From positions 186,001 through 250,000 of the forward strand of contig JAQVAV010000003.1 in NCBI GenBank assembly GCA_028690665.1: 64,000 nucleotides of DNA, written 5' to 3'. Positions 6,910 through 24,499 of this stretch are shown one piece after another. A model generated the notes under the pieces. The model made no database searches. It saw only the letters and a program-made list of their open reading frames with translations, and was not told the DNA's origin. Both the position numbers and the translations under genes were made by a program. Each line of letters begins with the position of its first letter. Position 1 is the first letter of the stretch. This DNA comes from Paludibacter sp. Its GTDB lineage: Bacteria > Bacteroidota > Bacteroidia > Bacteroidales > Paludibacteraceae.

Positions 6910-8850
6910 TTACACATCTAATCTTTCAAATTGAGAGTTTTTACTTTTAAACTCAGGCACAATCCTCTTCATTTGCGATACAGTCAGAAAATTTTTACAC
7001 ATAGCGCTGTATTTTATCAACTCATCAATTTGTTCCGATACCACATCATATTCATATTCCTGAACTTTTGCAATCATAATTTTAGAATTATGGGTTTGTG
7101 TGGTTATTTCCTTTTGGTTCAACAATTCTTCATATAATTTTTCTCCTGGACGTAAGCCGGTATATTCAATTTTAATATCAACTTCAGGTGTAAAACCTGC
7201 CAAACGAATCATTTTCTTCGCCAAATTTACAATTTTCACCGGACTGCCCATATCAAATATATAAATTTCACCTCCATCTCCCATAACTCCGGCTTCCAGT
7301 ACAAGCATACAAGCTTCAGGAATAGTCATAAAATACCGGATAATTTCAGGATGAGTAACTGTTACCGGGCCACCTTTTTCTATCTGACTTTTAAATAATG
7401 GAATTACAGATCCATTGGAACCTAAAACATTTCCAAACCTTGTAGTGATAAATTTAGTTGTATTTTCTCTCTCTTTGTGAATTTTCCGGTTAAGTGACTG
7501 AACGTAAATTTCAGCAATACGTTTTGAAGCACCCATGACATTCGTTGGATTTACAGCCTTATCTGTCGAAACCATAACAAATCTTTGCACATCATACTTC
7601 ACAGCCAAATCTGCAAGTATCTTTGTCCCCTTTACATTAGCCTGAATACTTTCAACCGGATTATCTTCCATCAGCGGTACATGTTTATAAGCTGCAGCGT
7701 GATAGATGATATCCGGCCTGTACATATCCATCATGTAATCCATACGTTCTTTATTTCTTACATCTCCTATAAATACCGAAAAATTTTGATCTTCAAAACG
7801 TTCCTCAAGTTCCAACCTTAAATTGTGCATAGGTGATTCAGCCTGATCAAGTAAAACCACTAATTTAGGTTTGTATTTCAACACCTGTCTTATGATTTCA
7901 CTTCCTATGGAACCAGCAGCCCCTGTCACAAGAACTACTTTTGATTTTAAATGTTCTTCAATATTCTCTGTGGAGATACTAATTTTAGGCCTTTCCAATA
8001 AGTCTTCAATCTGAATTGATTTTATCTGCTTTACATCTGGAGTATTATTATTCCACACACTGACCGGAGGAAGGGTTAGCACAGACATATTATTGTTAAG
8101 AAAAATATCCAAATCTGTCTCAGGGTTAATTTCTTTCATTTTTAAAGGAGATACAATGACAGCTTTAGCTTTTTTTATCACTTTTTTTCTTAAAACATTC
8201 TCATCTAAATGATAAACCTTTACTCCCATAATCATTCGTTCGCTCGCCCCTTTATCATCATCAATAAACCCGACCAATTTGTATTGTACATCGTCTTTTC
8301 CAGATCTCAACACTTTTGCAATTCCCTCCGAAGCTGATTTCGTTCCATAAATCATAACAGGAGTAATATGTCTAATATTTTGAATCATAAAATCGAACAA
8401 CGATTTCACACCCAATCTTAAGAAAAACAAAAGGAGAAATGAAAATATAGCATAAAATACCAATGCCGAATAATTAAAAAGAACAATGTGATATATTTCC
8501 TCAGTCACAAAATTAACAATAGAAAGTAGTACAAAATTGGACACTACAGCCATCAATAATTTTGTGGCATCCACATATCCTGAGTATCTTAATACTCCTG
8601 AATAAGTATGAAAAAACCAAAAAAACAACAACTGGAAAACAAGTAATAAAATTATACGTTGTATAAATGAAAAAATACGAATATCCGGGGCCCCGGATAA
8701 GAGTCTAATCGAAAAATAGCTTGCCACATAATAAGCAAACACACAAAGAATTACATCTACAAGTAAAACAAACCAACGAGGTAAATAATTCAAAGAAGTG
8801 ATGTGTGAGAAAACATCTGTATTCTTTATAAAGCTGAAATTGTCTTTCAT
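6910..8850 (-). CDS. CapD/FlaA1-like nucleoside-diphosphate-sugar 4,6-dehydratase, membrane-anchored
   Basis: The 646-residue protein has four N-terminal transmembrane helices (about residues 24-160), a CoA-binding-like Rossmann domain, and a short-chain dehydrogenase domain starting at VVLVTGAAGSIGSEI near residue 306. The motif VSTDKAVNPTNVMGASKR carries Met where most SDRs have the catalytic Tyr, as known for WbpM/CapD enzymes with an S-M-K triad. WbpM-type enzymes convert UDP-GlcNAc to UDP-4-keto-6-deoxy sugar, a precursor of QuiNAc or FucNAc. It precedes the WecA-like transferase in one operon, which suggests that it makes the priming sugar. A CAAATATA promoter element lies 39 bases upstream. 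Confidence 0.9.
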   Translation of the reverse strand: MKDNFSFIKNTDVFSHITSLNYLPRWFVLLVDVILCVFAYYVASYFSIRLLSGAPDIRIFSFIQRIILLLVFQLLFFWFFHTYSGVLRYSGYVDATKLLMAVVSNFVLLSIVNFVTEEIYHIVLFNYSALVFYAIFSFLLLFFLRLGVKSLFDFMIQNIRHITPVMIYGTKSASEGIAKVLRSGKDDVQYKLVGFIDDDKGASERMIMGVKVYHLDENVLRKKVIKKAKAVIVSPLKMKEINPETDLDIFLNNNMSVLTLPPVSVWNNNTPDVKQIKSIQIEDLLERPKISISTENIEEHLKSKVVLVTGAAGSIGSEIIRQVLKYKPKLVVLLDQAESPMHNLRLELEERFEDQNFSVFIGDVRNKERMDYMMDMYRPDIIYHAAAYKHVPLMEDNPVESIQANVKGTKILADLAVKYDVQRFVMVSTDKAVNPTNVMGASKRIAEIYVQSLNRKIHKERENTTKFITTRFGNVLGSNGSVIPLFKSQIEKGGPVTVTHPEIIRYFMTIPEACMLVLEAGVMGDGGEIYIFDMGSPVKIVNLAKKMIRLAGFTPEVDIKIEYTGLRPGEKLYEELLNQKEITTQTHNSKIMIAKVQEYEYDVVSEQIDELIKYSAMCKNFLTVSQMKRIVPEFKSKNSQFERLDV

Positions 8851-8888
8851 TTTTCCAGATTTATTAGTATAGAGTATATTTTAAAGTG

Positions 8889-8896
8889 CAAATATA
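8889..8896 (-). promoter_or_regulatory. -7 promoter element (TATATTTG) for the CapD-like gene
   Basis: CAAATATA reads TATATTTG on the minus strand and fits TAnnTTTG. It lies 39 bases upstream of the start at 8850, in the divergent gap shared with panB. Confidence 0.55.
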
Positions 8897-9025
8897 GCCT
8901 TAAAAAACGAAATAGCATTCGTGTTTATAAATTAACTTTATACATATTACAAATAGAAGGCACAAATATATTTAACTGAAAGATAAGTTGACAAAAATTT
9001 CTCTAAAAAATGAAAATTTATTCCA

Positions 9026-9033
9026 TATCTTTG
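9026..9033 (+). promoter_or_regulatory. -7 promoter element (TATCTTTG) for panB
   Basis: TATCTTTG followed by GCA matches the Bacteroidota -7 consensus exactly. It is 30 bases upstream of the panB ATG. No well-spaced -33 TTTG box stands out. Confidence 0.65.
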
Positions 9034-9063
9034 CAGTCTTTATTACTAACCATAATATAAACT

Positions 9064-9882
9064 ATGTCGGTACATAATGAAAATATGAGAAGGGTAACAA
9101 CCCATCGCCTGCTTGAAATGAAGCAAAGAGGCGAAAAAATCAGTATGCTTACAGCTTATGATTACACCATGGGAACTATTGTAGATAATGCTGGTGTAGA
9201 TGTCATTTTAGTGGGAGACTCTGCTTCCAACGTAATGTGTGGAAATATGACAACCTTACCAATTACACTCGATCAAATGATTTTTCTTGCAAAATCTGTT
9301 GTTCGTGGGGTAAAAAGAGCATTAGTGGTTATTGATATGCCTTTCGGGTCTTATCAGGGAAACTCAAAAGAAGCTCTTGCATCGGCTATTCGCATAATGA
9401 AAGAAACTCATGGTGATTGTCTGAAACTTGAAGGAGGAGAGGAAGTTATTGAGTCTATAAAAAGAATCCTGACAGCAGGAATTCCTGTTATGGGGCATTT
9501 AGGACTAATGCCACAATCCATTAACAAATATGGATCATATACCGTTCGTGCTCAGGAAAATGAAGAAGCTGAAAAATTAGTTCGCGATGCTCATTTATTG
9601 GAAGAAGCCGGTTGCTTTGCTCTTGTTCTGGAAAAAATACCGGCAGCTCTTGCCAAACGTGTTGCAAATGAACTTACTATTCCTGTTATCGGGATTGGAG
9701 CCGGCAACGGAGTTGACGGACAAGTTTTAGTATTACACGATATGATTGGTCTTAATCAGGATTTTTCGCCAAGATTTCTCCGGCGATATGCTGATTTGCA
9801 AAGTATCATGAACGATGCCATTGCTAACTATGTGAGCGATGTAAAGTCAGGTGATTTTCCTAGTGAATCTGAACAATATTAA
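9064..9882 (+). CDS. panB: 3-methyl-2-oxobutanoate hydroxymethyltransferase (ketopantoate hydroxymethyltransferase)
   Basis: The 272-residue protein is PanB, which adds a hydroxymethyl group from methylene-tetrahydrofolate to 2-oxoisovalerate in pantothenate synthesis (EC 2.1.2.11). Recognisable stretches are [12 protein letters not shown], the metal-binding [42 protein letters not shown] and [17 protein letters not shown] with the catalytic-region Glu and loops. Length matches the family. It stands alone on the plus strand in the middle of the minus-strand polysaccharide genes, with its own promoter and a strong terminator, so it is unlikely to share their regulation. panC and panD are not in the window. 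Confidence 0.97.
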
Positions 9883-9890
9883 ACAACAGA

Positions 9891-9926
9891 AAGAGGCTAT
9901 TTCAAAATACAATGAAATAGCCTCTT
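9891..9926. terminator. Bidirectional intrinsic terminator between panB and fcl
   Basis: A perfect 14-bp stem, AAGAGGCTATTTCA (9891-9904) with TGAAATAGCCTCTT (9913-9926), closes an 8-base loop and is followed by T-rich sequence on the plus strand. It lies between convergent genes. Confidence 0.85.
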
Positions 9927-9950
9927 TTTCAAAATAAATTATATAAATTT

Positions 9951-11009
9951 TTATTTTGTATAATCGGCAACAACCTGAGTAATACCATCTTCCAAAATAA
10001 TGGAAGGTTTCCAGCCTAAACTATTCAGTTTTGAATTATCCATCAATTTTTTCGGGGTTCCATCCGGTTTTGTGGTATCCCAAAAAATTTCTCCTTCGTA
10101 GCCGACAATTTTCCGGACAACTTCCGATAATTCCCGAATTGATAAATCTTCACCACAACCGGCATTTACATGCGAAGGAGTAGTATACGGTGCATCATAG
10201 TTTTCTAAAAGAAAAACACTTGCATCTGCCATATCATCAACATGCAGAAACTCCCGCAAAGGAGAACCTGTTCCCCAAAGGGTAATGGTCACTTTGTCGC
10301 CGGACTTTGTAATACCATATTTTGCAAGCTTCTGCATAATTTCTCCTTCGACAGCATCTCCACTTACACCTTCAACAGGCAATTTATTGAAATCTTTTCT
10401 GACCAAACCAAAATCTCCGGACATAAGGTATTTTCCCAAAACCATTTTACGGATCAAGGCAGGCAAAACGTGGGACTTTTCGAGATCATAATTATCGTTT
10501 TGCCCGTAAAGATTTGTAGGCATAATAGAAATATAATTACAACCATACTGGGCATGATAAGCCTCGCACATTTTGATACCGGCAATTTTGGCTATGGCAT
10601 AAGGTTCATTTGTTTGTTCTAGCAAGCCAGTGAGCAAAGCATCTTCACGCATAGGCTGCTCTGCCATCCGGGGATAAATACAAGATGAACCGAGAAACAA
10701 TAACTTCTTCACTCCATGTAAATAGCTCTGGTGAATAATATGATTTTGTATCATCAGATTTTCGTAAATAAACTGCGCACGATAAATGCTGTTTGCGACA
10801 ATTCCACCAACTTTGGCTGCGGCAAGCACAACATATTCAGGCTTTTCCTGATCAAAAAATTTAGCTACCGCAATGCTATCCAACAAATCAAGCTCCTGTC
10901 GTGTACGCGTTACAATATTCTGAAATCCTTTGGCTTCCAAGTTTCTTTTTATTGCCGAGCCGACCATTCCCCGATGTCCGGCAACAAATATTTTTCCATT
11001 TTTTTCCAT
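9951..11009 (-). CDS. fcl: GDP-L-fucose synthase
   Basis: The 352-residue SDR enzyme (also called wcaG) performs the 3,5-epimerisation and 4-reduction that turn GDP-4-keto-6-deoxymannose into GDP-L-fucose (EC 1.1.1.271). It shows the NADP-binding GHRGMVGSA at the N-terminus, LAAAKVGGI, the catalytic Ser region LGSSCIYP and the YAIAK motif. The ATG at 11009 (MEKNGKIFVAGHRG) is preferred to the ATG five codons upstream (11024), because family proteins begin there and the longer form would overlap gmd by 8 bases. Directly upstream is gmd, the previous pathway step, so the two form an operon. Fucose may end up in the exopolysaccharide or on glycoproteins. Confidence 0.94.
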   Translation of the reverse strand: MEKNGKIFVAGHRGMVGSAIKRNLEAKGFQNIVTRTRQELDLLDSIAVAKFFDQEKPEYVVLAAAKVGGIVANSIYRAQFIYENLMIQNHIIHQSYLHGVKKLLFLGSSCIYPRMAEQPMREDALLTGLLEQTNEPYAIAKIAGIKMCEAYHAQYGCNYISIMPTNLYGQNDNYDLEKSHVLPALIRKMVLGKYLMSGDFGLVRKDFNKLPVEGVSGDAVEGEIMQKLAKYGITKSGDKVTITLWGTGSPLREFLHVDDMADASVFLLENYDAPYTTPSHVNAGCGEDLSIRELSEVVRKIVGYEGEIFWDTTKPDGTPKKLMDNSKLNSLGWKPSIILEDGITQVVADYTK

Positions 11010-11016
11010 TTTTTTG

Positions 11017-12165
11017 TTATTCAAAATAATTCATAATACGGAAACCACCATCTTTCAGATAGGTTTCTTTTTTCATTACTTTGATGTCTGAGCGCATCAT
11101 ATCCTCAACAAGCCGGGACAGATTATATTCCGGGATCCAGTTCAGCTTCGTTTTTGACTTAGTCGGATCTCCAATCAGCAACTCAACTTCTGTCGGGCGA
11201 AAATAAGCTGGATCAACTTCCACTACAGCATCTTTACGGTCTTTTAATTTCCCCAGGAACACCTTCCCTACTTTTTCTGTGAACTTAACTTCATCTATTG
11301 ATCCAATATAGCCTTTCTCGTCCACACCTTCGCCTTTAAAGGCGATCTGAACACCAACTTCGGCAAAAGCCAAACGGACAAATTCCCGAACTTCCGTTGT
11401 AATACCGGTAGCAATTACATAATCATCCGGCTCGTCCTGTTGAAGGATCAACCACATAGCCTGTACGTAATCCTTGGCATGTCCCCAATCACGTTGAGCA
11501 GAAAGGTTCCCTAAATAAAGTTTATCCTGCATACCCATAACAATTTTGGAAGCTGCACGGGTAATTTTACGCGTCACAAAAGTTTCTCCACGTAACGGAG
11601 ATTCATGATTAAACAAAATTCCATTATTTGCATGCATGCCATAAGCTTCGCGATAATTCACCGTAATCCAGTAACCATAAAGTTTAGCAACAGCATAAGG
11701 AGAACGCGGATAAAACGGAGTGGTTTCCTTTTGCGGAATTTCCTGAACCAAACCATAAAGTTCAGAAGTTGAGGCCTGATAAATGCGGGTCTTTTTAACT
11801 AAGCCCAATAGACGTACAGCTTCTAAAATACGCAAAGTTCCAATACCATCTGCATTGGCAGTATATTCAGGTGAATCAAAACTCACTTTAACGTGGCTCA
11901 TTGCAGCTAAATTATAAATTTCATCCGGCTGTGTTTCCTGTATAATACGTGTTAGGTTCATGGAATCGGTCATATCACCGTAGTGAAGTATTAAATTACG
12001 TTCTCTCACATGCGGATCCTGATAAAGATGGTCTATACGATCAGTGTTGAACAATGATGAACGGCGTTTCAAGCCATGGACAATATATCCTTTTTTTAAT
12101 AGTAGTTCAGCCAAATAGGCACCATCTTGTCCGGTAATTCCGGTAATTAAAGCAACTTTTTTCAT
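11017..12165 (-). CDS. gmd: GDP-mannose 4,6-dehydratase
   Basis: The 382-residue SDR enzyme dehydrates GDP-D-mannose to GDP-4-keto-6-deoxymannose (EC 4.2.1.47), the first step towards GDP-L-fucose. Motifs are [16 protein letters not shown] for NADP binding, [38 protein letters not shown] with the catalytic Thr/Ser and Glu, YAVAK, and [15 protein letters not shown]. The start MKKVALITG at 12165 is typical of the family; an in-frame ATG five codons upstream (12180) is possible. It lies between the tyrosine kinase gene and fcl on the same strand. The kinase gene ends 86 bases upstream, so read-through from the export genes is plausible. Confidence 0.96.
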
Positions 12166-12251
12166 TTTTACAGATTTCATTTACATAAGAAATAAAATAA
12201 TTAATTCTATTCCGGTTTTCTATGATATAAAATATTAATTATATGTCAATT

Positions 12252-14660
12252 TCACAAATCACTGTCATCCTGATAATACTGGAAGTACTTATCAGCCATT
12301 TCTTTCTTTTTCTTTCCAAATAAATTTCTACCACCACCGGTAGCATAACCATAACCATAAGCATAATTATACTTCTTCGAATAATATCTCGAATACTTAT
12401 TTTCTTCGATCGAAATATCATTGACTATAGTGTACAAATTCTCTATTTTATCATTTTTAAGCTGATTTATTATTTTTCTAAAAAATGATTTGTTTGTTTT
12501 ATTATTCCTTACAATAAACAAATTCACATCGGAAATTAAAGAAAGTGGATAAGCATCGGCTACAATGCCAATCGGACTTGTATCTATAACAATATAATCA
12601 TACTTCTTTTTCAGTTCGGCAAACATTCCCTGTAATTTTTCAGAACGAATTAACTCACCGGCATTAGGGGGTACTGTGCCGGATGGCAATATATCAAAAT
12701 CAACCCCGGGTAATTTGTAAATAACATCTTCTAAATCCCTTTCCCCAATCAGATAGTTCGTTACACCTGCAGCATTGCTCATATTAAATCTAACATTAAT
12801 ACTTGGTTTACGAATATCCATATCAACAAGTAATGTTTTGCGGCTTGCCATAGCATAAACACATGCCAGATTTACACAAAAATATGTTTTCCCATCTCCA
12901 GACTCTCCGGAAGTTACTGTGAGCATAATATTTTTTTTCCGTTGCACAACAAATTCAATCCGGGTTCGGATAACACGAAACATTTCAGTAAACGACGACC
13001 TTGGATATTTTGCGACAATCAGAGGTTCTTTAGAATGAGTATGTCTGACAATGCCAATTAGTTTAAACGGAATTCCTTTTTCGACATCATTTGTTGAACG
13101 AATTGCAGCATTTGTTAACTCTCTTATTATGACAATCAAAGCCGGGGCAAGTACACCTATTAATAAAAATATTATTGTAGTTTTAGATTTTTTATCACCA
13201 TTGGTAGTTCCTACTACACGCGCCTTGTCAAGAATTTCATTATCCGGCGTATTTGAAGATTTAAGAATCTCAGCTTCAGCTCTTTTTTGCAAAAAGAAAG
13301 TATAATAATTGTCATCCATTTTATAATTTCTTTCTATATTCGACATGGCAATTTCCTTTTCAGGCAGTTCCTCTATCTCTTTTTGAACTTTAGCATACCG
13401 GGTATCAAATTCCTTTTTCTCGATATTCAGTGCAGCTCGCATATTCTTGGTAACTTCGTTGATTGACTTTTTTACATTTTTAATCTCATCTGTATATTGT
13501 GAATAAAAAAAGTTTTTCGGACTCAGGCTGCTTCTTTTCAGATTCAAATCATTTATTTGCTGAATAAGAGACATCAACATTGGTTCATTAAGGCCTAAAC
13601 TCGCCGGTGCAATAACATCGCCATCACTCAAGTTCGTTTTTAAATAATCGGTAAGATAGTTCAGGTATATTTCACGAAGCCTCAGTTCTGACAATTCAGC
13701 ATCATAATTAGTTGCTTTGGTAATCAAGTCTGTAGTGTGCGTTTCAACATTGACTAATTGATTTTTCTGTCTAAAATTAGTCATTTCATCCTGAGATTTA
13801 TTCAACGAAACTGCAACTTTCTCTAGTTGAGTATCAATAAAACTGACCGTTTTATTGGCAGCATCATTCTTTCGTTCCAAATTTTCAGCCAGAAATGTAT
13901 CAAAAAGTTTATTTATAAAATCAATGTCACGCTGATAATTCTCACTTGTCAGAGAAACCTCCAAAACAGAAGATCCTTCACTCTTATAATTAAACATAAG
14001 TCGCGAAGTAAAATCAGCAACTAAAGATGATTTGTCCCTGAATCTAAAATACAATTCACTCTTAGTTCCATAATTCGGCGTGCTTGTAATTGTCAGAAAA
14101 AACAAATTATTGGAAACAGGTTCACCGATCCGCCCCCGAATGCTAAAATCTTCATATTTTTTATCATCATCAACCGTAATAAGATAAGTTCCATCCGGTT
14201 GTAAATTAATCTTAAATAATAAATTGTACGCCTCAGGAGCAATATAATCCGATTGAATAGAAATTGGAGATAAATTATAGATATTTCGGGTTTTAAAATT
14301 TCCTTTGGTTATATAATCAACTTCCAATTGAGGCAAACTATCAATAACTCTATTAATAAGGTCATTCGATCCGAGCATAATAACCTGGTTATCGGTATTG
14401 CTATATCCGGCCTGAACGCCAAATCCTTGCATCAGGGCCTGAGCATTACTCACCGCTTTGTATTCTTCAATAATAATTGTGCCCAGTGTCTTATAGGACG
14501 GTATCCATTTTCTGTTTTGAAGATATGCTAATCCAAGCGCAATAATTACTCCTATAACAAATAAGTACCAATAATGTAAAAAATTAAAAACCCATTCCAT
14601 AATATCGAAATTGGATTCTTCATCATCTAAAAATGGCTTTTCTATTTTATTCTGATTCAT
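12252..14660 (-). CDS. Wzc-like polysaccharide co-polymerase with tyrosine autokinase domain
   Basis: The 802-residue inner-membrane protein has a transmembrane helix near residues 31-49, a periplasmic Wzz domain with long coiled-coil stretches (about 270-460), a second helix near 499-517 and a cytoplasmic BY-kinase domain. The kinase has Walker A SGESGDGKT (about 587-595), Walker A' LLVDMDIRKP and Walker B YDYIVIDTSP. The C-terminal tail is tyrosine-rich (YSRYYSKKYNYAYGYGY), the usual autophosphorylation cluster. Such proteins control export and chain length with an outer-membrane Wza channel, and two Wza-like genes lie directly upstream. The gap to the nearer Wza-like gene is 25 bases, which indicates one operon. 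Confidence 0.93.
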   Translation of the reverse strand: MNQNKIEKPFLDDEESNFDIMEWVFNFLHYWYLFVIGVIIALGLAYLQNRKWIPSYKTLGTIIIEEYKAVSNAQALMQGFGVQAGYSNTDNQVIMLGSNDLINRVIDSLPQLEVDYITKGNFKTRNIYNLSPISIQSDYIAPEAYNLLFKINLQPDGTYLITVDDDKKYEDFSIRGRIGEPVSNNLFFLTITSTPNYGTKSELYFRFRDKSSLVADFTSRLMFNYKSEGSSVLEVSLTSENYQRDIDFINKLFDTFLAENLERKNDAANKTVSFIDTQLEKVAVSLNKSQDEMTNFRQKNQLVNVETHTTDLITKATNYDAELSELRLREIYLNYLTDYLKTNLSDGDVIAPASLGLNEPMLMSLIQQINDLNLKRSSLSPKNFFYSQYTDEIKNVKKSINEVTKNMRAALNIEKKEFDTRYAKVQKEIEELPEKEIAMSNIERNYKMDDNYYTFFLQKRAEAEILKSSNTPDNEILDKARVVGTTNGDKKSKTTIIFLLIGVLAPALIVIIRELTNAAIRSTNDVEKGIPFKLIGIVRHTHSKEPLIVAKYPRSSFTEMFRVIRTRIEFVVQRKKNIMLTVTSGESGDGKTYFCVNLACVYAMASRKTLLVDMDIRKPSINVRFNMSNAAGVTNYLIGERDLEDVIYKLPGVDFDILPSGTVPPNAGELIRSEKLQGMFAELKKKYDYIVIDTSPIGIVADAYPLSLISDVNLFIVRNNKTNKSFFRKIINQLKNDKIENLYTIVNDISIEENKYSRYYSKKYNYAYGYGYATGGGRNLFGKKKKEMADKYFQYYQDDSDL

Positions 14661-14685
14661 ATTTTTAAAACGAGGATCGTTATAA

Positions 14686-15441
14686 TTAATTTTGAATGTA
14701 TAAAACGGTAAAAAAGAATGACAGCGAAGAACTTATCACACTCATAAAACTACTCCATGAATTTTCTATTTTATAAAAGCTTGATTTTGCCCGTTGTACA
14801 TAAATAATATCATTAGGATAAATATAATAATACTGAGATTCAATAACACTTTTAGGCCTTATGTCGAATTCAAGAACCTTAGTCTTACCATCCAATACTT
14901 CACGAAGAATTCTCACATGCTTAAAATCACCAGAATGATTAATTTCACCAGACATGGATAACGCCTGATAAATAGTAAGCCTGTCCCGACTTATTTGATA
15001 AACACCCGTCCCGGCATCTCCAATTACCGTAAATGTTTTATTCATAAGCCCTAATTTCACAACAGCATCCGGGATTATTTCACGTATTTTTTTTTCTACT
15101 GATTCCTCTGCTTCTCTCACTGTAAGTCCTTCAACCGGAATACCCTTAACAAATGGAAGATCTATGGTTCCATCCGGATATACCCTGTAAGATAAAATGT
15201 TGTTCAAATTATTCGAATTGTTTGGAGGGGTTATAAGCTTTGAAATCGTTTCATCAACAGTGATTAAACGGAAAATTATTTCATCGTTAATTTTAATTGT
15301 ATAGTCCTCATAAGGTATTTTTTCATATTCAGGTAATGAAGCATTATTTTCCTGCATAAGCCCGATACTCCGGTAATTATAGCACGAAGAAATAACAAAT
15401 GGAATTATAAAAATAAAAATATATTTTATTGAATTTTTCAT
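14686..15441 (-). CDS. Polysaccharide export outer-membrane lipoprotein (Wza family), second copy
   Basis: The 251-residue protein has a lipoprotein signal with lipobox ISSC (Cys20), a Poly_export domain containing YRVYPDGTIDLPFVKGIPVEGLTVREAEESVEKKI (opening of the family core), and an SLBB-like segment FTVIGDAGTGVYQI. A hydrophobic C-terminal segment (about 230-250) could be the outer-membrane-spanning helix seen in Wza. It lies 19 bases downstream of a similar gene and 25 bases upstream of the Wzc-like kinase. The two export proteins share layout but little exact sequence. They may form a mixed channel or serve different assemblies; this is inference. Confidence 0.88.
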   Translation of the reverse strand: MKNSIKYIFIFIIPFVISSCYNYRSIGLMQENNASLPEYEKIPYEDYTIKINDEIIFRLITVDETISKLITPPNNSNNLNNILSYRVYPDGTIDLPFVKGIPVEGLTVREAEESVEKKIREIIPDAVVKLGLMNKTFTVIGDAGTGVYQISRDRLTIYQALSMSGEINHSGDFKHVRILREVLDGKTKVLEFDIRPKSVIESQYYYIYPNDIIYVQRAKSSFYKIENSWSSFMSVISSSLSFFFTVLYIQN

Positions 15442-15460
15442 ACATAACAGGAAATAATTG

Positions 15461-16273
15461 TTACTTCGTTCCGGTAGAATTTACAATTTTATCATACGAA
15501 TCATATATCAGCGCCCCAAAAGAAACTGTAGTTAACGCAGTTGATAAAAAACTGGTCAGATTAGTTATACTGAAAAACTGCTCATTAATGTTCTGAATAT
15601 AAATCACATCATTAGGCTCAATATAAAAAAACTCAGAATGGATAATATCTGCACTTCTCAAATCAAATTTTTTCACAAGAACACCCTTGTCTGTTTCTCG
15701 CAAAACCCGAATGCGGCTTCGGTCCCCATATATACCAACATCTCCGGCCATTGCCAAGGCCTTAAAAATATTGATTTTTTCCTGAGGCAAATTTATATAA
15801 GCTGATTTTCCGCTCCCTAAAACGCTGAAATACCTTCCAACCACACGAATTTCAACAGTACTGAATTTCAAAACAGGTTTTATTGCTTTTTCAAGAGCAT
15901 CATTAGCCTCTCTGAGAGTAAGACCTTCCACATGAACATCACCTACCATGGGAAAGTTCAAGTTTCCTGAATCATCGATCAGATAAGTATACAAATCAAT
16001 GGCACCGTTCGAACTTCCATTTAAAATAATAGAAACAGTATTATTGACTGTTCCATTGAAAACATCATTGGTTTTATCATCAGTAGAATATACACGCACA
16101 AACAACCGGTCTCCTACTCTGAGTTTGTAGTCTGTAAATGAAATACTGTCTTTATAAGCAGGTATATCAAATCCAGATGGTTGCATATAATTTATCTTTT
16201 TTGCTGTAATACAAGAAGATAAGATTATTGTAATAAAAGAGTATATGAATAAATTACAAAATTTTTTATACAT
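15461..16273 (-). CDS. Polysaccharide export outer-membrane lipoprotein (Wza family), first copy
   Basis: The 270-residue protein has a lipoprotein signal with lipobox LSSC (Cys21), then a Poly_export domain: LRVGDRLFVRVYS near residues 51-63, NFPMVGDVHVEGLTLREA near 110-127, and an SLBB-like stretch from FSVLGSGKSAYINLP. The C-terminus carries a hydrophobic, Ser/Thr-rich segment that could span the outer membrane. It is the first gene of the minus-strand export run, and a CAAAGATA promoter element lies 29 bases upstream. Wza-type proteins form the outer-membrane pore for group-1-like exopolysaccharide export. Its pairing with a second export gene is discussed under that gene. Confidence 0.88.
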   Translation of the reverse strand: MYKKFCNLFIYSFITIILSSCITAKKINYMQPSGFDIPAYKDSISFTDYKLRVGDRLFVRVYSTDDKTNDVFNGTVNNTVSIILNGSSNGAIDLYTYLIDDSGNLNFPMVGDVHVEGLTLREANDALEKAIKPVLKFSTVEIRVVGRYFSVLGSGKSAYINLPQEKINIFKALAMAGDVGIYGDRSRIRVLRETDKGVLVKKFDLRSADIIHSEFFYIEPNDVIYIQNINEQFFSITNLTSFLSTALTTVSFGALIYDSYDKIVNSTGTK

Positions 16274-18215: not shown

Positions 18216-18650
18216 ATGAAACGTAAAATAATTTATTTAATGCTTGGTCTCATTATCAGTGCAGGAGTTTTTGCACAGAATTCAGAAGCCAAACATATTG
18301 AAATTTTAGATGCAGCTGCCTTTAAACAAAAAGTCTGGAATTTTGATAAAAACAAAACATTTACAAGAGAGGGTAAAACACCTATTTTATTAGACTTTTA
18401 TGCAACTTGGTGTCCTCCGTGTAAAAAACTTTATCCACACCTTCAGCAATTGCAGGAAAAATACAAAGGTAAACTTGTTATTTACGAAGTTGATGTTGAT
18501 AAAAATCCGGAAATAGCACGTCTATTCAACGTTCAGGCTATGCCTACTTTGGTGTTCGTAAATTCTAAAACGAGCTACAAAACCGAACTTGGCTACAGAG
18601 ACTATAATGAATTGGAAAAAAATGCTGTAAACTATTTCTTTACAAAATAA
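18216..18650 (+). CDS. Periplasmic thioredoxin-fold protein (WCPPC active site)
   Basis: The 144-residue protein has a Sec signal peptide cleaved near VFAQ (residue 21) and one thioredoxin domain. The active site is ATWCPPCKK with Cys66 and Cys69, and the cis-proline loop is QAMPTLVFV. CPPC is commoner in TlpA/ResA/CcmG-type periplasmic reductants than the CGPC of cytoplasmic thioredoxin. It therefore probably reduces or exchanges disulfides in the periplasm. No DsbD-like electron donor is in the window. It ends the run started by the barrel protein, and a strong hairpin follows 20 bases after the stop. Confidence 0.9.
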   Translation: MKRKIIYLMLGLIISAGVFAQNSEAKHIEILDAAAFKQKVWNFDKNKTFTREGKTPILLDFYATWCPPCKKLYPHLQQLQEKYKGKLVIYEVDVDKNPEIARLFNVQAMPTLVFVNSKTSYKTELGYRDYNELEKNAVNYFFTK

Positions 18651-18670
18651 TTCTTACACTAAAACACGGA

Positions 18671-18711
18671 TAAGAAATCCCGCTTCTGTGGTTCGGAAGC
18701 GGGATTTCTTA
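18671..18711. terminator. Bidirectional intrinsic terminator, 16-bp perfect stem
   Basis: TAAGAAATCCCGCTTC (18671-18686) pairs perfectly with 18696-18711 around a 9-base loop. It lies between the thioredoxin gene and the purL-tail remnant. It may originally have terminated purL on the minus strand before the insertion at that site. Confidence 0.85.
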
Positions 18712-18755
18712 TTTACTCTTTGTGGACTTTTAATTCTCAACTATAGTTTCTCCAT

Positions 18756-18809
18756 CTATTTCCGTTCATTTACAAACGCTTCCATCCATGGAGTGATTTG
18801 GCTATTGTC
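18756..18809 (-). pseudogene. Displaced remnant of the purL 3' end
   Basis: Read on the minus strand, these 54 bases encode DNSQITPWMEAFVNERK and a TAG stop, starting immediately after and in frame with the stop codon of the protease gene. The C-terminus of intact purL reads NSDQITPWMEAFVNARVWVERNK. A run of 26 identical bases links the two (18769-18794 and 20736-20761). The remnant lacks about five residues that the purL copy has, so it looks like the drifting, non-functional copy. It marks the far end of an insertion or duplication at the 3' end of purL. Confidence 0.8.
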
Positions 18810-20543
18810 CTAATACGCATAACTTAATCCAACATTTAATCCTTTAATTTTAGCATCAGGCTCGTAAATATAATCATATTCATTATCATTCAAATCACCC
18901 CAACTATCATTTACTTTACGAGGATTAAAACTCAAACTCAACATAATATATTTTTTGTTTTTAAATTTATAAGCCAAATTAACACCATATTTAAAACCAC
19001 CTGTCATACTACTAACAATCCCGGTATTCATCCCTCCATAAGCCTGAATAAAAGGTATTATATAATAGCGTTTAATTTGAAAAGGATAACGATATCCCAA
19101 CAATAATCTTATGTTATAATAATTAATATATCCATCTTTGGTTATTTCATAACTACTTGTATCATAATTATATTCAGTTGAATAAGCATGGTGATTATAT
19201 TTACTTACACCTAAACCGGTATAATAATTTTCTCCATATAATAACTCAAAACCATACCCCACAGATTCAATATCTGAACTTGGGAAGAATGCTTCTAAAT
19301 TTAATGTATATCCAAAATCAAAATGCTTAACAAAACCAATTCGTTCATCTGCATCTATAAATTTCAAATTACTTAAGTTGAGCAGCTTCCAACTTTTTTG
19401 TTCTATTTGCCAGGTTGTTGTTATTGGTTTGTTATTATACATATAAAAGACTGTAGCAGGAGCATCAGAAGATGCAAGTCCGGCAATTGAAGAAAAACTT
19501 AGAGTATTTTTTTGTTTTTCAAAACTTCTTACAATTGCATCTGCTATTGCAATTCGTACTGCTTCTACGGGATTTTGTCCACTTTGAAAGACATTATAAA
19601 TATCTTCTTTTGCATCATCTGATGCTAAATTTAGATATTGTATAAAATTTTCTGCGCTCAACTTTGATACGTAATCATAAGCTACATATTTCAAAACCTT
19701 TTTATAGCCATGCATCAAATCTCCAACAAATTGACGACTGATTTTTTCTAATGTCTCATTCCCGGGTTTGTCTTCTTGGCTTAGTGCTTCAGATATAAAT
19801 TTTGTTATTGTTGTATTTGGAATTGACAGATTAACACTTTCTCTATCAAAAACTTTCCATGTATTTAAACCCACTACAGAATAGCCAGATGTTTGTGTTG
19901 TATCAGCTATTAATAATGGACTTCCCGAACTTCCTCTATCAATTTGGGCTGTATGTTGAATCGCAAAAGTTTTTACATCTTCATCTAAATTAGACATTTC
20001 AAAAGTTGAATTGGATACAATGCCTTTACCTAACTGCCATGACGGTTTACCATTTAAACCGGGAAAACCAGCAGAAAACACCTCCTGACCATCTTCAACA
20101 GGATCTATTCTTAAATTTAAGGATCTATCTATATTGACATCTTTAGGAAATGCCAACAAGGCTAAATCAAAATCAGGGTCAATAGCCACAATTTCACAGT
20201 CGTTATATGAAACCTTACTACCATCCGAATTGAAAAACTCAATGTTGGCTTTCTCTGCCTGTAAAATTACATGTCGATTGGTAAGCACATAAACCAAACC
20301 ATCTGATCCTTTTACAAGAAAACCTGAGCCAAAGCCTTTACCTTCAGCAAAAGCATCTAAATAATCTGCTGCTTTTGGATATCCATTATCTGAAGCATAT
20401 TTACTAAGATTTTTCAAAAAATCAACTGTTGATTCACGATAAACTGGTCTTACAACTACTACAAAGTCTCTTAAATTCTTTTGGGAAAACAAATCAAGCT
20501 GAACCAACAGGACAAAAACTAAAATAATTATTTTTTTAAACAT
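18810..20543 (-). CDS. Trypsin-like serine protease with C-terminal beta-barrel-like domain
   Basis: The 577-residue protein has a signal peptide (about residues 1-21) and a trypsin-2/DegP-like protease domain with all three catalytic residues visible: His91 in TNRHVI, Asp126 in DFDLALL and Ser206 in GSSGSP. A helical linker (about 240-370) follows. The last 190 residues alternate aromatic-rich strands and turns, such as YYNIRLLLGYRYPF and GLNVGLSYAY, ending in an aromatic residue, as outer-membrane barrels do. No PDZ domain is seen. It may be an outer-membrane-anchored protease facing the periplasm; this is inference. It lies between purL and a displaced purL tail, so it is probably acquired cargo. 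No clear promoter was found. Confidence 0.82.
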   Translation of the reverse strand: MFKKIIILVFVLLVQLDLFSQKNLRDFVVVVRPVYRESTVDFLKNLSKYASDNGYPKAADYLDAFAEGKGFGSGFLVKGSDGLVYVLTNRHVILQAEKANIEFFNSDGSKVSYNDCEIVAIDPDFDLALLAFPKDVNIDRSLNLRIDPVEDGQEVFSAGFPGLNGKPSWQLGKGIVSNSTFEMSNLDEDVKTFAIQHTAQIDRGSSGSPLLIADTTQTSGYSVVGLNTWKVFDRESVNLSIPNTTITKFISEALSQEDKPGNETLEKISRQFVGDLMHGYKKVLKYVAYDYVSKLSAENFIQYLNLASDDAKEDIYNVFQSGQNPVEAVRIAIADAIVRSFEKQKNTLSFSSIAGLASSDAPATVFYMYNNKPITTTWQIEQKSWKLLNLSNLKFIDADERIGFVKHFDFGYTLNLEAFFPSSDIESVGYGFELLYGENYYTGLGVSKYNHHAYSTEYNYDTSSYEITKDGYINYYNIRLLLGYRYPFQIKRYYIIPFIQAYGGMNTGIVSSMTGGFKYGVNLAYKFKNKKYIMLSLSFNPRKVNDSWGDLNDNEYDYIYEPDAKIKGLNVGLSYAY

Positions 20544-20629
20544 AATAAATTAAATTTTATTCCAAATTAAAGACGCTAATAAAACAAGTAATTTCAAAAT
20601 AGTCTAAAATAAAAACACTATAGGCATTA

Positions 20630-20667
20630 AAAACCCAGTCATTATTTTAGCACAACAACTGGGTTAT
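20630..20667 (-). terminator. Terminator-like hairpin downstream of purL
   Basis: AAACCCAGT (20631-20639) pairs with ACTGGGTT near 20658-20665 around a long AT-rich loop, and on the minus strand the second arm runs into TTTTT. It lies 38 bases after the purL stop. It probably came with the sequence inserted at the purL 3' end. Confidence 0.6.
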
Positions 20668-20704
20668 ATCTTTGGGCCTCTTATTTTAAACTTAGGATAT
20701 ACAA

Positions 20705-23700
20705 TTATTTATTTCTTTCGACCCAAACTCTTGCGTTTACAAACGCTTCCATCCATGGAGTAATCTGATCGCTGTTCACCCGGTCAGCCGGATAATAAGC
20801 ACATTGCCAAGGGAAAATAGCACGTTCAGGATGAGGCATCATCGCTAAATGACGACCATCAGCAGAACTGATACCTGCGACATTATATGCAGAACCGTTC
20901 GGATTAGCAGGATAGCCTTCATAACTGTATTTGGCAATGACATTATATTCATTTTCAGCTTTCGGTAAATAGAATTTTCCTTCACCGTGAGCAACCCATA
21001 CGCCTAATTTAGTTCCGCTCAGCGAGCCGAGCATCACCGAATTATTTTCAGGAATAGTCAAGCCTATAAATCCGGATTCAAATTTGTGTGAATCGTTGTG
21101 TAACATTCGTGGCTGTACATCGTGCTCCGGAGTTACCACACCAAGTTCCACCATCAACTGACAACCGTTACAAATACCTAAACTCAAAGTATCATTGCGT
21201 TTGTAAAAATTATCAAGAGCTAATTTAGCCTTTTCGTTATAAAGAAAACCTCCGGCCCAACCTTTAGCAGAACCCAGAACGTCTGAATTGGAAAAACCGC
21301 CACAGAAAACAATCATATTTACATCTTCAAGCGTTTCGCGTCCGGTAGCCAAATCGGTCATGTGAACATCTTTTACATCGAAACCGGCCAAATATAATGA
21401 GTAAGCCATTTCTCGTTCACCATTCGTTCCTTTTTCACGGATAATAGCCGCTTTAACTCCACTTGGTTTTCGTTCAGGCGAAATTCCGAGCTGAGAAAAC
21501 TTACCTTTAAATGCTGTATTAAAAGCATATTCCAAAGGTTGATTCTTATAGTTATTGTAACGTGCCTGTGCACAAACTTCCCCACTTTGTTTACGATCCA
21601 ACAAATAAGATGCTTTATACCACAAATCGCGCATATCATTGATAGAGAACGAATATGATTCTTTTTTACGGGTAATTTCAATGCGACGGTCAGCAATTGG
21701 AGTGGCTATGCGGGCAAAACCGACACCATTCGCAGCCAGAATTTTTTCAACAGCTTTTTTATCTTTCACCTGAATGAGAACGCCCGGATTTTCGGCAAAC
21801 AACATAGTTACTAACGATTTTTCAGCAATGTAATCCAGATTCACATTCAATCCACCATGTGTATTACCAAAGGTCATTTCGAAAAGCGCAGTAATAATGC
21901 CACCTTCCGAAATATCGTGTCCGGCGAGAATCAAGCTTTTAGCAATCATTTCCTGAATGCTTTCGAACGCTGCTTTAAAATATTCAGGTTCCGTCACTGT
22001 CGGAACATCATCTCCGATTTTATTCAGAGTTTGTGCCAATACTGAACCTCCTAATTTATGGCTGTCAAATGAAAAATCGATATAATAAACTGACGTTTTT
22101 TCATCGTTTACCAAAACGGGAGAAATTGTTTTTTTGACATCAGAAACTTCTCCTGCAGCCGATATAATTACAGTTCCCGGAGAGAAAACTTTTTCGTCAC
22201 CATATTTCTGAGTCATCGAAAGAGAATCTTTTCCAGTAGGAATATTAATTCCCAGCGAACAAGCAAAATCTGAACAAGCCTCAACAGCCCGGTACAGGCG
22301 GGCATCTTCACCCGGATTTTTGCAAGGCCACATCCAGTTGGCACTCAATGAAATTGAATCCATTCCATCCTTCAACGGAGCCCAAACCAAGTTAGTCAGA
22401 GCCTCAGCAATTGCCAAAACAGAACCAGCCTCAGAATCAGCCAAAGCAGCTAATGGCGCATGACCGATAGAAGTAGCAATACCGGTAGTTCCACGATAAT
22501 CAAGAGCTACCACACCAAGGTCGTTCAGTGGCAACTGAATTTCGCCGGCGCATTGCTGACGGGCAATTTTTCCGGTCACCGAACGGTCTACTTTATTCGT
22601 CAACCAATCTTTACAAGCTACCGATTCTACCTGCAATACGTTTTCAATATAAGTTTGAAGTTTTTCTTCCGAAATTTCAGGAGCAACAAAATGTTCATCC
22701 ACACTATTGTCGGTAATCACCGTACGGGGCGGCTTACCAAACATATATTCCAACTTCAGATCGATAGGTTTTTCACCATCCTTTTGTTCAAACACAAAAT
22801 CCATATCGCCTGTAGTTTCTCCAACAACATAAAAAGGAGCGCGCTCGCGTTCGGAAATTTTACGAACGCGTTCAATATCCTGTTCTTTCAACAACAATCC
22901 CATGCGCTCCTGACTTTCATTCCCCACAATTTCTTTAGCACTTAAAGTCGGATCTCCGACCGGCAATGCATCAACATCAATTTTGCCTCCGGTAGTTTCA
23001 ACAAGTTCGGATAAGCAGTTGAGGTGACCTCCCGCTCCATGATCATGGATTGAAACAATAGGATTATCACTTGATTCGGCTAAAGTACGAATTACGTTCG
23101 AAACACGTTTTTGCATTTCAGGATTGGCACGTTGTACAGCATTCAGTTCAATAGCATTGTCGTACTGACCTGTTTCAACAGAAGAAACCGCTCCTCCACC
23201 CATACCAATACGATAGTTATCACCACCCATGACAACCACTTTTTCGCCTGGTACAGGATTGCCTTTTAGGGCATCTTCCATTTTTCCAAACCCAACGCCT
23301 CCGGCAAGCATGATTACTTTATCGTAGCCGTATTTTTTATTGTGTTCTTCATGTTCGAAAGTAAGCAACGAACCGCAAATCAGTGGTTGTCCGAATTTAT
23401 TACCAAAATCCGAAGCTCCATTCGAAGCTTTAATCAAAATCTGTTCTGGAGTTTGGTACAACCATTTGCGCGGAGCAATATTATTTTCCCACTGACGACT
23501 TGTATCGTTACGGGCATAAGAAGTCATATACACAGCTGTACCAGCAATCGGCAAACTGGCTTTACCTCCACCGAGACGATCACGAATTTCACCTCCGGTT
23601 CCGGTTGCCGCACCATTAAACGGCTCTACTGTTGTCGGGAAGTTATGAGTTTCAGCTTTCAGAGAAATAACCGATTCAATTTCTTTTGTTTCAAAAAAGT

Positions 23701-24406
23701 CCGGTTTATCACCACTTGCCGGAGCAAACTGTTCGATTTTCGGACCTGCATTAAAAGCCACATTATCTTTATATGCAGAAACAAGCTTATTCGGATTTTC
23801 TTCAGAGGTTTTGCGAATCAGTTTAAAAAGTGAAAGTTCTTTCTCTTCACCATCTACAATATATTGCCCGTTAAAAATTTTATGACGGCAATGTTCCGAA
23901 TTTACCTGAGAAAAACCAAACACTTCGCTATCGGTCAGTTTACGTCCGACCTTTTGGCTAACACTGTTGAGATAGTCAATTTCATCGGCACTCAAAGCAA
24001 GCCCTTCCTGCTCGTTATAAGCCGCAATATCGTCAATATAAACGATAGGATCGGGTTGTTTATTAATGGTAAAAACATCCTGATTCAAGCCGGAATAGAT
24101 TCTTTCTAGCATAGGATCGTATTCCAATCCGCCCTGTACCGAAGGAGTCGGAGGCAGCAAACGGAATTCCTCTATACGAAGAATGCCGCTGATACCCATA
24201 TTTTGAGTTATTTCAACGGCATTCGTACTCCATGGAGTAATCATTTCTCTACGCGGGCCGACAAAGTTCCCTTCGACAGAAATTTCGGTCAAAAGTTTGG
24301 CTTCGCTAAATAGCCACTCTAATTTTTTTACATCATCATTTGACAAGTTTTCCGCGGATTGTACCGCATACACATGCCGGGCGGGTGTTCGGAAGAATTG
24401 AATCAT
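20705..24406 (-). CDS. purL: Phosphoribosylformylglycinamidine synthase, single-chain form
   Basis: The 1233-residue enzyme makes FGAM from FGAR, glutamine and ATP in purine synthesis (EC 6.3.5.3). It has the full large-type layout: the N-terminal domain, two AIR-synthase-like halves (SEHCRHKIF, AETHNFPTTVEPFNGAATG, HDHGAGGH, SANWMWPCK) and a C-terminal class I glutamine amidotransferase with the nucleophile in GICNGCQL (near residue 1080) and PHPERA (near 1190). MIQFFRTPARH at 24406 matches family N-termini; an in-frame ATG 13 codons upstream (24445) is less likely. A CAAAGATA promoter lies 94 bases upstream. The last residues ARVWVERNK lie in or next to a stretch that is duplicated 2 kb away, beyond the protease gene. 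Confidence 0.98.
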   Translation of the reverse strand: MIQFFRTPARHVYAVQSAENLSNDDVKKLEWLFSEAKLLTEISVEGNFVGPRREMITPWSTNAVEITQNMGISGILRIEEFRLLPPTPSVQGGLEYDPMLERIYSGLNQDVFTINKQPDPIVYIDDIAAYNEQEGLALSADEIDYLNSVSQKVGRKLTDSEVFGFSQVNSEHCRHKIFNGQYIVDGEEKELSLFKLIRKTSEENPNKLVSAYKDNVAFNAGPKIEQFAPASGDKPDFFETKEIESVISLKAETHNFPTTVEPFNGAATGTGGEIRDRLGGGKASLPIAGTAVYMTSYARNDTSRQWENNIAPRKWLYQTPEQILIKASNGASDFGNKFGQPLICGSLLTFEHEEHNKKYGYDKVIMLAGGVGFGKMEDALKGNPVPGEKVVVMGGDNYRIGMGGGAVSSVETGQYDNAIELNAVQRANPEMQKRVSNVIRTLAESSDNPIVSIHDHGAGGHLNCLSELVETTGGKIDVDALPVGDPTLSAKEIVGNESQERMGLLLKEQDIERVRKISERERAPFYVVGETTGDMDFVFEQKDGEKPIDLKLEYMFGKPPRTVITDNSVDEHFVAPEISEEKLQTYIENVLQVESVACKDWLTNKVDRSVTGKIARQQCAGEIQLPLNDLGVVALDYRGTTGIATSIGHAPLAALADSEAGSVLAIAEALTNLVWAPLKDGMDSISLSANWMWPCKNPGEDARLYRAVEACSDFACSLGINIPTGKDSLSMTQKYGDEKVFSPGTVIISAAGEVSDVKKTISPVLVNDEKTSVYYIDFSFDSHKLGGSVLAQTLNKIGDDVPTVTEPEYFKAAFESIQEMIAKSLILAGHDISEGGIITALFEMTFGNTHGGLNVNLDYIAEKSLVTMLFAENPGVLIQVKDKKAVEKILAANGVGFARIATPIADRRIEITRKKESYSFSINDMRDLWYKASYLLDRKQSGEVCAQARYNNYKNQPLEYAFNTAFKGKFSQLGISPERKPSGVKAAIIREKGTNGEREMAYSLYLAGFDVKDVHMTDLATGRETLEDVNMIVFCGGFSNSDVLGSAKGWAGGFLYNEKAKLALDNFYKRNDTLSLGICNGCQLMVELGVVTPEHDVQPRMLHNDSHKFESGFIGLTIPENNSVMLGSLSGTKLGVWVAHGEGKFYLPKAENEYNVIAKYSYEGYPANPNGSAYNVAGISSADGRHLAMMPHPERAIFPWQCAYYPADRVNSDQITPWMEAFVNARVWVERNK

Positions 24407-24499
24407 TGTGTTATATGAGGTTTTGTAAATTACAAAGCAGAGCAATTATCCTAAATATCAATAAGTTATACAGATAATTATCTTATTTTAATTCGCTGA

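Follow-up and report, generated by a model that had tools for sequence, protein, structure and literature searches.

A protease gene between two diverged purL 3′ ends in a Paludibacter genome, a possible scar of recombination

Integrative elements enter the 3′ ends of genes and restore them. Homology-facilitated illegitimate recombination is a different process, argued for T6SS effector and Rhs loci that have displaced gene 3′ ends; these loci are a precedent for 3′ ends shifted back behind new DNA (PMC5361080). We examined a locus of a Paludibacter sp. genome (G000; 4,054,725 bases, 4.05 Mb) where a protease gene lies between two purL 3′ ends. Coordinates below are those of the window, the 64,000-nucleotide stretch of this genome that was analyzed (GCA_028690665.1, contig JAQVAV010000003.1, positions 186,001 to 250,000). 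With a probability of about 0.45, we read the locus as the scar left when two diverged purL 3′ ends of the genus recombined, with the protease gene as cargo between them and no dedicated recombinase. It looks like an event of an ordinary, known kind that is unusually readable here.

The order on the minus strand is purL, a hairpin, the protease gene, the second purL end, a strong hairpin and a convergent thioredoxin-like gene. Intact purL (20705..24409, minus strand, 1234 residues counted from the ATG, stop codon at 20705-20707) was delimited from its reading frame, family matches and alignment with relatives, and its C-terminal tail, taken from the same frame and the relatives' alignment, reads ITPWMEAFVNARVWVERNK. 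A terminator-like hairpin followed by a T run (20632..20665, minus strand, fold z -3.7) stands 3′ of it, then comes the 577-residue trypsin-like protease gene (18810..20543, minus strand, stop codon at 18810-18812; PF13365, E 5.5e-19). Directly 3′ of the protease stop, in the strand and frame of the protease, is the second purL end or remnant (about 18806-18741, minus strand), which reads NSQITPWMEAFVNERK and then an in-frame TAG (18756-18758). A strong hairpin is predicted at 18669..18713, between the remnant and the thioredoxin-like gene (trx, 18216..18650, plus strand); the latter, recognized by a family match and belonging to a block kept in the genus, forms the right flank of the putative scar.

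The two ends share the 26-base direct repeat that the first-pass annotation had reported within two copies of the purL C-terminal coding sequence (20736..20761 in purL and 18769..18794 in the remnant, both on the minus strand). The repeat is real: 26/26 nt are identical, with 30/32 on extension, and a degenerate pattern of it allowing up to two mismatches has no further match in the whole G000 genome, where the reversed pattern used as a control was not found. The exactness is partly due to conservation of this stretch of purL, since among 703 pairs of intact ends from the genus 8 are likewise identical over it; judged from these sequences, the perfect match would require no special cause.

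We compared the remnant with purL ends from 48 genomes of the genus, the relatives being represented by one genome per species, with no other strain of the window's species among them. Its purL homology stretches to both sides of the identical block and runs toward the hairpin 3′ of it. The alignment with the G332 purL end continues beyond the TAG (91% over 54 nt), and that with G032 crosses the stop of the G032 gene (83% over 78 nt). Since whole purL ends from other species align with the remnant past its TAG, it is a complete but decayed purL end, larger than the 13-residue stub first described. That description had it right after the protease stop and in the same frame, as we also find, and ended it at ERK, beyond which the alignment with relatives in fact continues. 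The remnant is a decayed purL tail and not part of a conserved gene, an alternative that the same annotation had raised.

Remnant and own-genome purL tail are identical at 38 of 51 nt. Over the same 51 nt, the purL ends of 21 of 37 other genomes match the remnant better than its own tail does and 5 do so equally, the best reaching 45/51. Mismatches between remnant and own tail are unevenly spread, 1/28 in the conserved part vs 12/23 beyond it (Fisher p 1.6e-4), an unevenness seen in only 2 of 666 pairs among intact purL ends; against the best relative, G332, there is one mismatch in the first 28 positions and five in the last 23. Two purL ends of different affinity stand at this locus.

No second purL end was found by motif in the stretches downstream of purL in relatives (n=36, many of them short): all 35 with the motif had exactly one, and the 36th (L067) lacked the motif altogether. 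The 37 genomes whose purL is followed by 500 nt or more, without G020, were also scanned by local alignment. G000 scored 54, its 10 shuffles reaching 26 at most, G030 came next with 33 against 29, G336 and G335 were two above their shuffles, and none of the 36 genomes other than G000 had a clear second end. The relatives examined, different species with one genome each, showed neither an empty site nor a second carrier, and no site occupied in one genome and free in another. Other cargo between purL and a tail remnant, which the first-pass annotation had proposed to look for, was likewise not found at the purL 3′ end in these relatives.

Which of the two ends is the resident one was judged from trees and from the ends themselves. 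In a mutS+uvrA+rpoB tree of 22 genomes G000 groups with G334 (100/99) and then with G013 (100/99); in a purL tree (1,212 columns, 26 genomes) it groups with G017 (100/98) and then with G334 (91/86). Followed window by window, purL of G000 stays with the same group, and no switch of affinity occurs in its body. At a codon where the remnant has Lys, G000, G334, G013 and G017 have Val (12 Val, 16 Lys and 10 others over 38 purL ends). The rhodanese-like gene upstream of purL is closest to that of G334 (85%; 26 of 48 genomes had a match). On these comparisons the present purL, body and tail, looks native to the lineage of G000, and the remnant looks the odd one. G020, a member of the home group, matches the remnant at 44/51, equal to G032, and clade means of tail identity show no separation (p 0.09 to 0.65, six tests). 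The rpoB tree alone, lacking G334, does not resolve the groups and places G000 with G013 (93/96), while a trx-orf276 tree puts G000 near G001 and G013, weakly (80/83). We lean somewhat toward the present purL as resident and the remnant as an end from another lineage.

The hairpins point the other way. The hairpin stretch 3′ of the remnant is most like the DNA downstream of purL in G017 (score 50 vs a best of 49 in 200 shuffles, which do not keep the palindrome), followed by that of G332 (41) and of G334 and G027 (40). This hairpin, predicted to be able to terminate transcripts from both sides, is perhaps the remnant's own purL terminator, to judge from that likeness, and since it most resembles the G017 terminator the remnant may be the resident end. 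The DNA 3′ of intact purL, which holds the hairpin at 20632..20665, matches no relative's purL downstream DNA above shuffles.

The C-terminal part of the protease probably forms an outer-membrane barrel. Homologs of 29-35% identity align through to its C-terminus, so that the stop is natural and purL homology starts just behind it, within about 6 nt; the joint of non-purL and purL DNA is thus right behind the protease stop. Of 295 genomes scanned from the order, 6 have the protease, G000 among them, and of 395 from the class 1 has it, which is G000 itself; both sets were drawn evenly and so hold few members of the genus. It was not found in the loci downstream of relatives' purL, and from these evenly drawn genomes and the DNA 3′ of relatives' purL it is likely absent from the rest of the genus. 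Among the matches listed (80 of at least 366 confirmed) long ones reach 33-40% identity at best, and one relative is in a record named Paludibacter sp. (35%). The purL-tail motif was absent near protease homologs in 63 loci, namely 5 from the order scan and the first 58 of the 80 listed, the last 22 being left out, and we know of no donor with the protease ahead of a purL end. Searches of mobile DNA gave only partial matches: 7 plasmid records, all below 35% identity and none covering half of the protein, 1 phage and 4 viral contigs. Low G+C of the protease gene was rejected as a mark of foreign DNA because the neighboring trx block, kept in the genus, is equally low. The protease family, a trypsin-like domain with a longer C-terminal part, is scattered in Bacteroidales and has many Treponema records, at 26-40% identity (among the matches listed; L083-L140).

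On the other flank, orf276 adjoins trx in 18 of 20 loci, the remaining two ending too early, and omp245 precedes orf276 in 8 of 20, the flank covered being short. In 5 of the 6 relatives with frames listed (G027, G017, G332, G024 and G001; not G013), trx faces a mutY-like gene, which we take to be mutY. The mutY-like gene of G000 sits on another contig (G000:C4:206039-207067); trx has lost this neighbor, and therefore the trx side of the junction has changed too. We rejected this displacement as a dated rearrangement because the trx neighbor differs in G013 as well, so that it dates nothing. Polysaccharide synthesis and export genes at 6910-16273 adjoin the omp-orf276-trx block, which has an export gene close by in G016, G019, G030 and G031 as well.

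Under the reading we prefer, homology would have paired one side of an incoming linear DNA with the chromosome, and the other side would have been joined without homology, at the odd joint a few bases past the protease stop. One purL would have stayed whole, and the other would have kept its last ~65 nt and probably its terminator and then decayed, in an order of events that we infer. At this locus, what is left of the target gene's 3′ end does lie behind new DNA. As to a homologous anchor, purL changes affinity nowhere along its length, and no such change would be expected if the anchor were of the same type as the resident; a mosaic purL as proof of the anchor was discarded as a candidate, none being seen in G000. 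In the first-pass annotation, DNA that entered at purL brought the protease, a terminator and a purL 3′ end, restored the gene end and displaced the resident tail with its terminator by 2 kb. Its core, an event at the purL 3′ end that left a tail remnant behind the protease, is kept here. Its direction we think less likely than the preferred one: it gives a simple account of why a purL end stands there, and the hairpin 3′ of the remnant resembles the purL terminators of G017, G332, G334 and G027 where nothing 3′ of the intact tail does, but the intact tail and body both look native, and the remnant is of Lys type vs Val type in the nearest relatives. A foreign remnant with its own hairpin beside an intact native purL would also follow if purL, protease, a second foreign purL and hairpin once stood in tandem and a later deletion, starting just behind the protease stop, removed all of the second purL except its last ~65 nt. 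We think this quite improbable, as the stretches examined in relatives hold no two purL genes in tandem and a purL search of G000 gives one match.

The remaining explanations fare worse. A direct repeat at a gene 3′ end, with the end restored, is what a site-specific integrative element using purL as its attachment site, or a deletion derivative of one, would leave; against it, a scan of 25 proteins of the window, from longer frames lying between 1.4 and 35.7 kb, found no integrase or transposase, in agreement with the first-pass annotation, the site has no other cargo in the relatives examined, themselves different species, purL homology in the remnant extends to both sides of the identical block, and a literature search on purL as an integration site listed nothing on this locus. 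We consider it very unlikely, and of the two origins first offered, a deletion derivative or an illegitimate event, the first is disfavored by the lack of integrase and other cargo and the second is the one we prefer. Plain duplication of the tail, such as might arise when an inserting element duplicates a long target site, would fit the shared orientation and the exact 26-nt core. Both copies should then stem from one sequence, and here they agree at 38/51, unevenly, with 12 of 23 positions differing just beyond the core. Since ends from other species match the remnant more closely than the tail of its own genome does, no simple duplication is at hand, and the uneven mismatches, together with the identity of intact purL pairs over the core, argue for a repeat made by two alleles meeting; duplication is extremely improbable.

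Exchange of purL may have occurred elsewhere in the genus. G017 is placed with G332 and G027 (85/93), inside a 99/100 group of ten, by the three-gene tree and with G000 by the purL tree; G018 is placed with G022 (100/100) by the three-gene tree, and its purL falls in the other group. The G018 tail is of Lys type, and the last ~180 residues of its PurL are about equally near both groups (mean 0.87 and 0.88, best 0.93 and 0.89), making a switch of affinity near the end of this gene possible. With both purL genes apart from their three-gene placement, purL alleles seem to move within the genus, or the discordance could be mis-binning, since both genomes are draft assemblies (430 and 440 contigs). 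It would be an unlikely, broader reading that purL is a recurrent site of between-species exchange in this genus, with the G017 and G018 alleles as examples, and that one exchange here trapped the protease and left the end of the other allele as a scar.

Seven relatives, G001 (L220), G013 (L221), G034 (L232), G016 (L229), G022 (L230), G021 (L231) and G332 (L225), have an in-frame purL insert of roughly 110-170 residues. It falls near residue 536-547 in the numbering of the window's PurL and contains a DUF559 domain (PF04480; the G001 insert gives E 3.5e-30). The purL genes of the window, of G334 and of G024 have no such insert. DUF559 is presumably a Vsr-like endonuclease family. The insert is thus an endonuclease-like domain inside a housekeeping enzyme, with no obvious intein parts, and a literature search on DUF559 inserts found none.

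If the preferred reading is true, the locus is a compact case of how a cargo gene can come to lie 3′ of a housekeeping gene with no mobile element involved; it would also warn against taking every 'displaced tail' for the original resident one, and hint that purL alleles pass between lineages of the genus. Allelic replacement of purL, as suggested for G017 and G018, concerns the same gene and genus and differs from G000 in leaving a single purL end, with no cargo between two. Gene-end-restoring integrative elements share with this locus the direct repeat at a gene 3′ end and the gene kept whole; unlike them, it has no integrase found, no other carrier, and copies that differ outside the conserved core. 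The T6SS effector and Rhs loci are alike in having a new gene beside a constant upstream part, the old 3′ end downstream and no recombinase (PMC5361080). The present case differs from them in that the gene is a housekeeping one, the cargo is an unrelated protease, a single genome has the arrangement and the remnant is perhaps foreign rather than the old end. By this analogy the scar would work like homology-facilitated illegitimate recombination rather than be a proved member, a filing chosen because anchor and direction are inferred.
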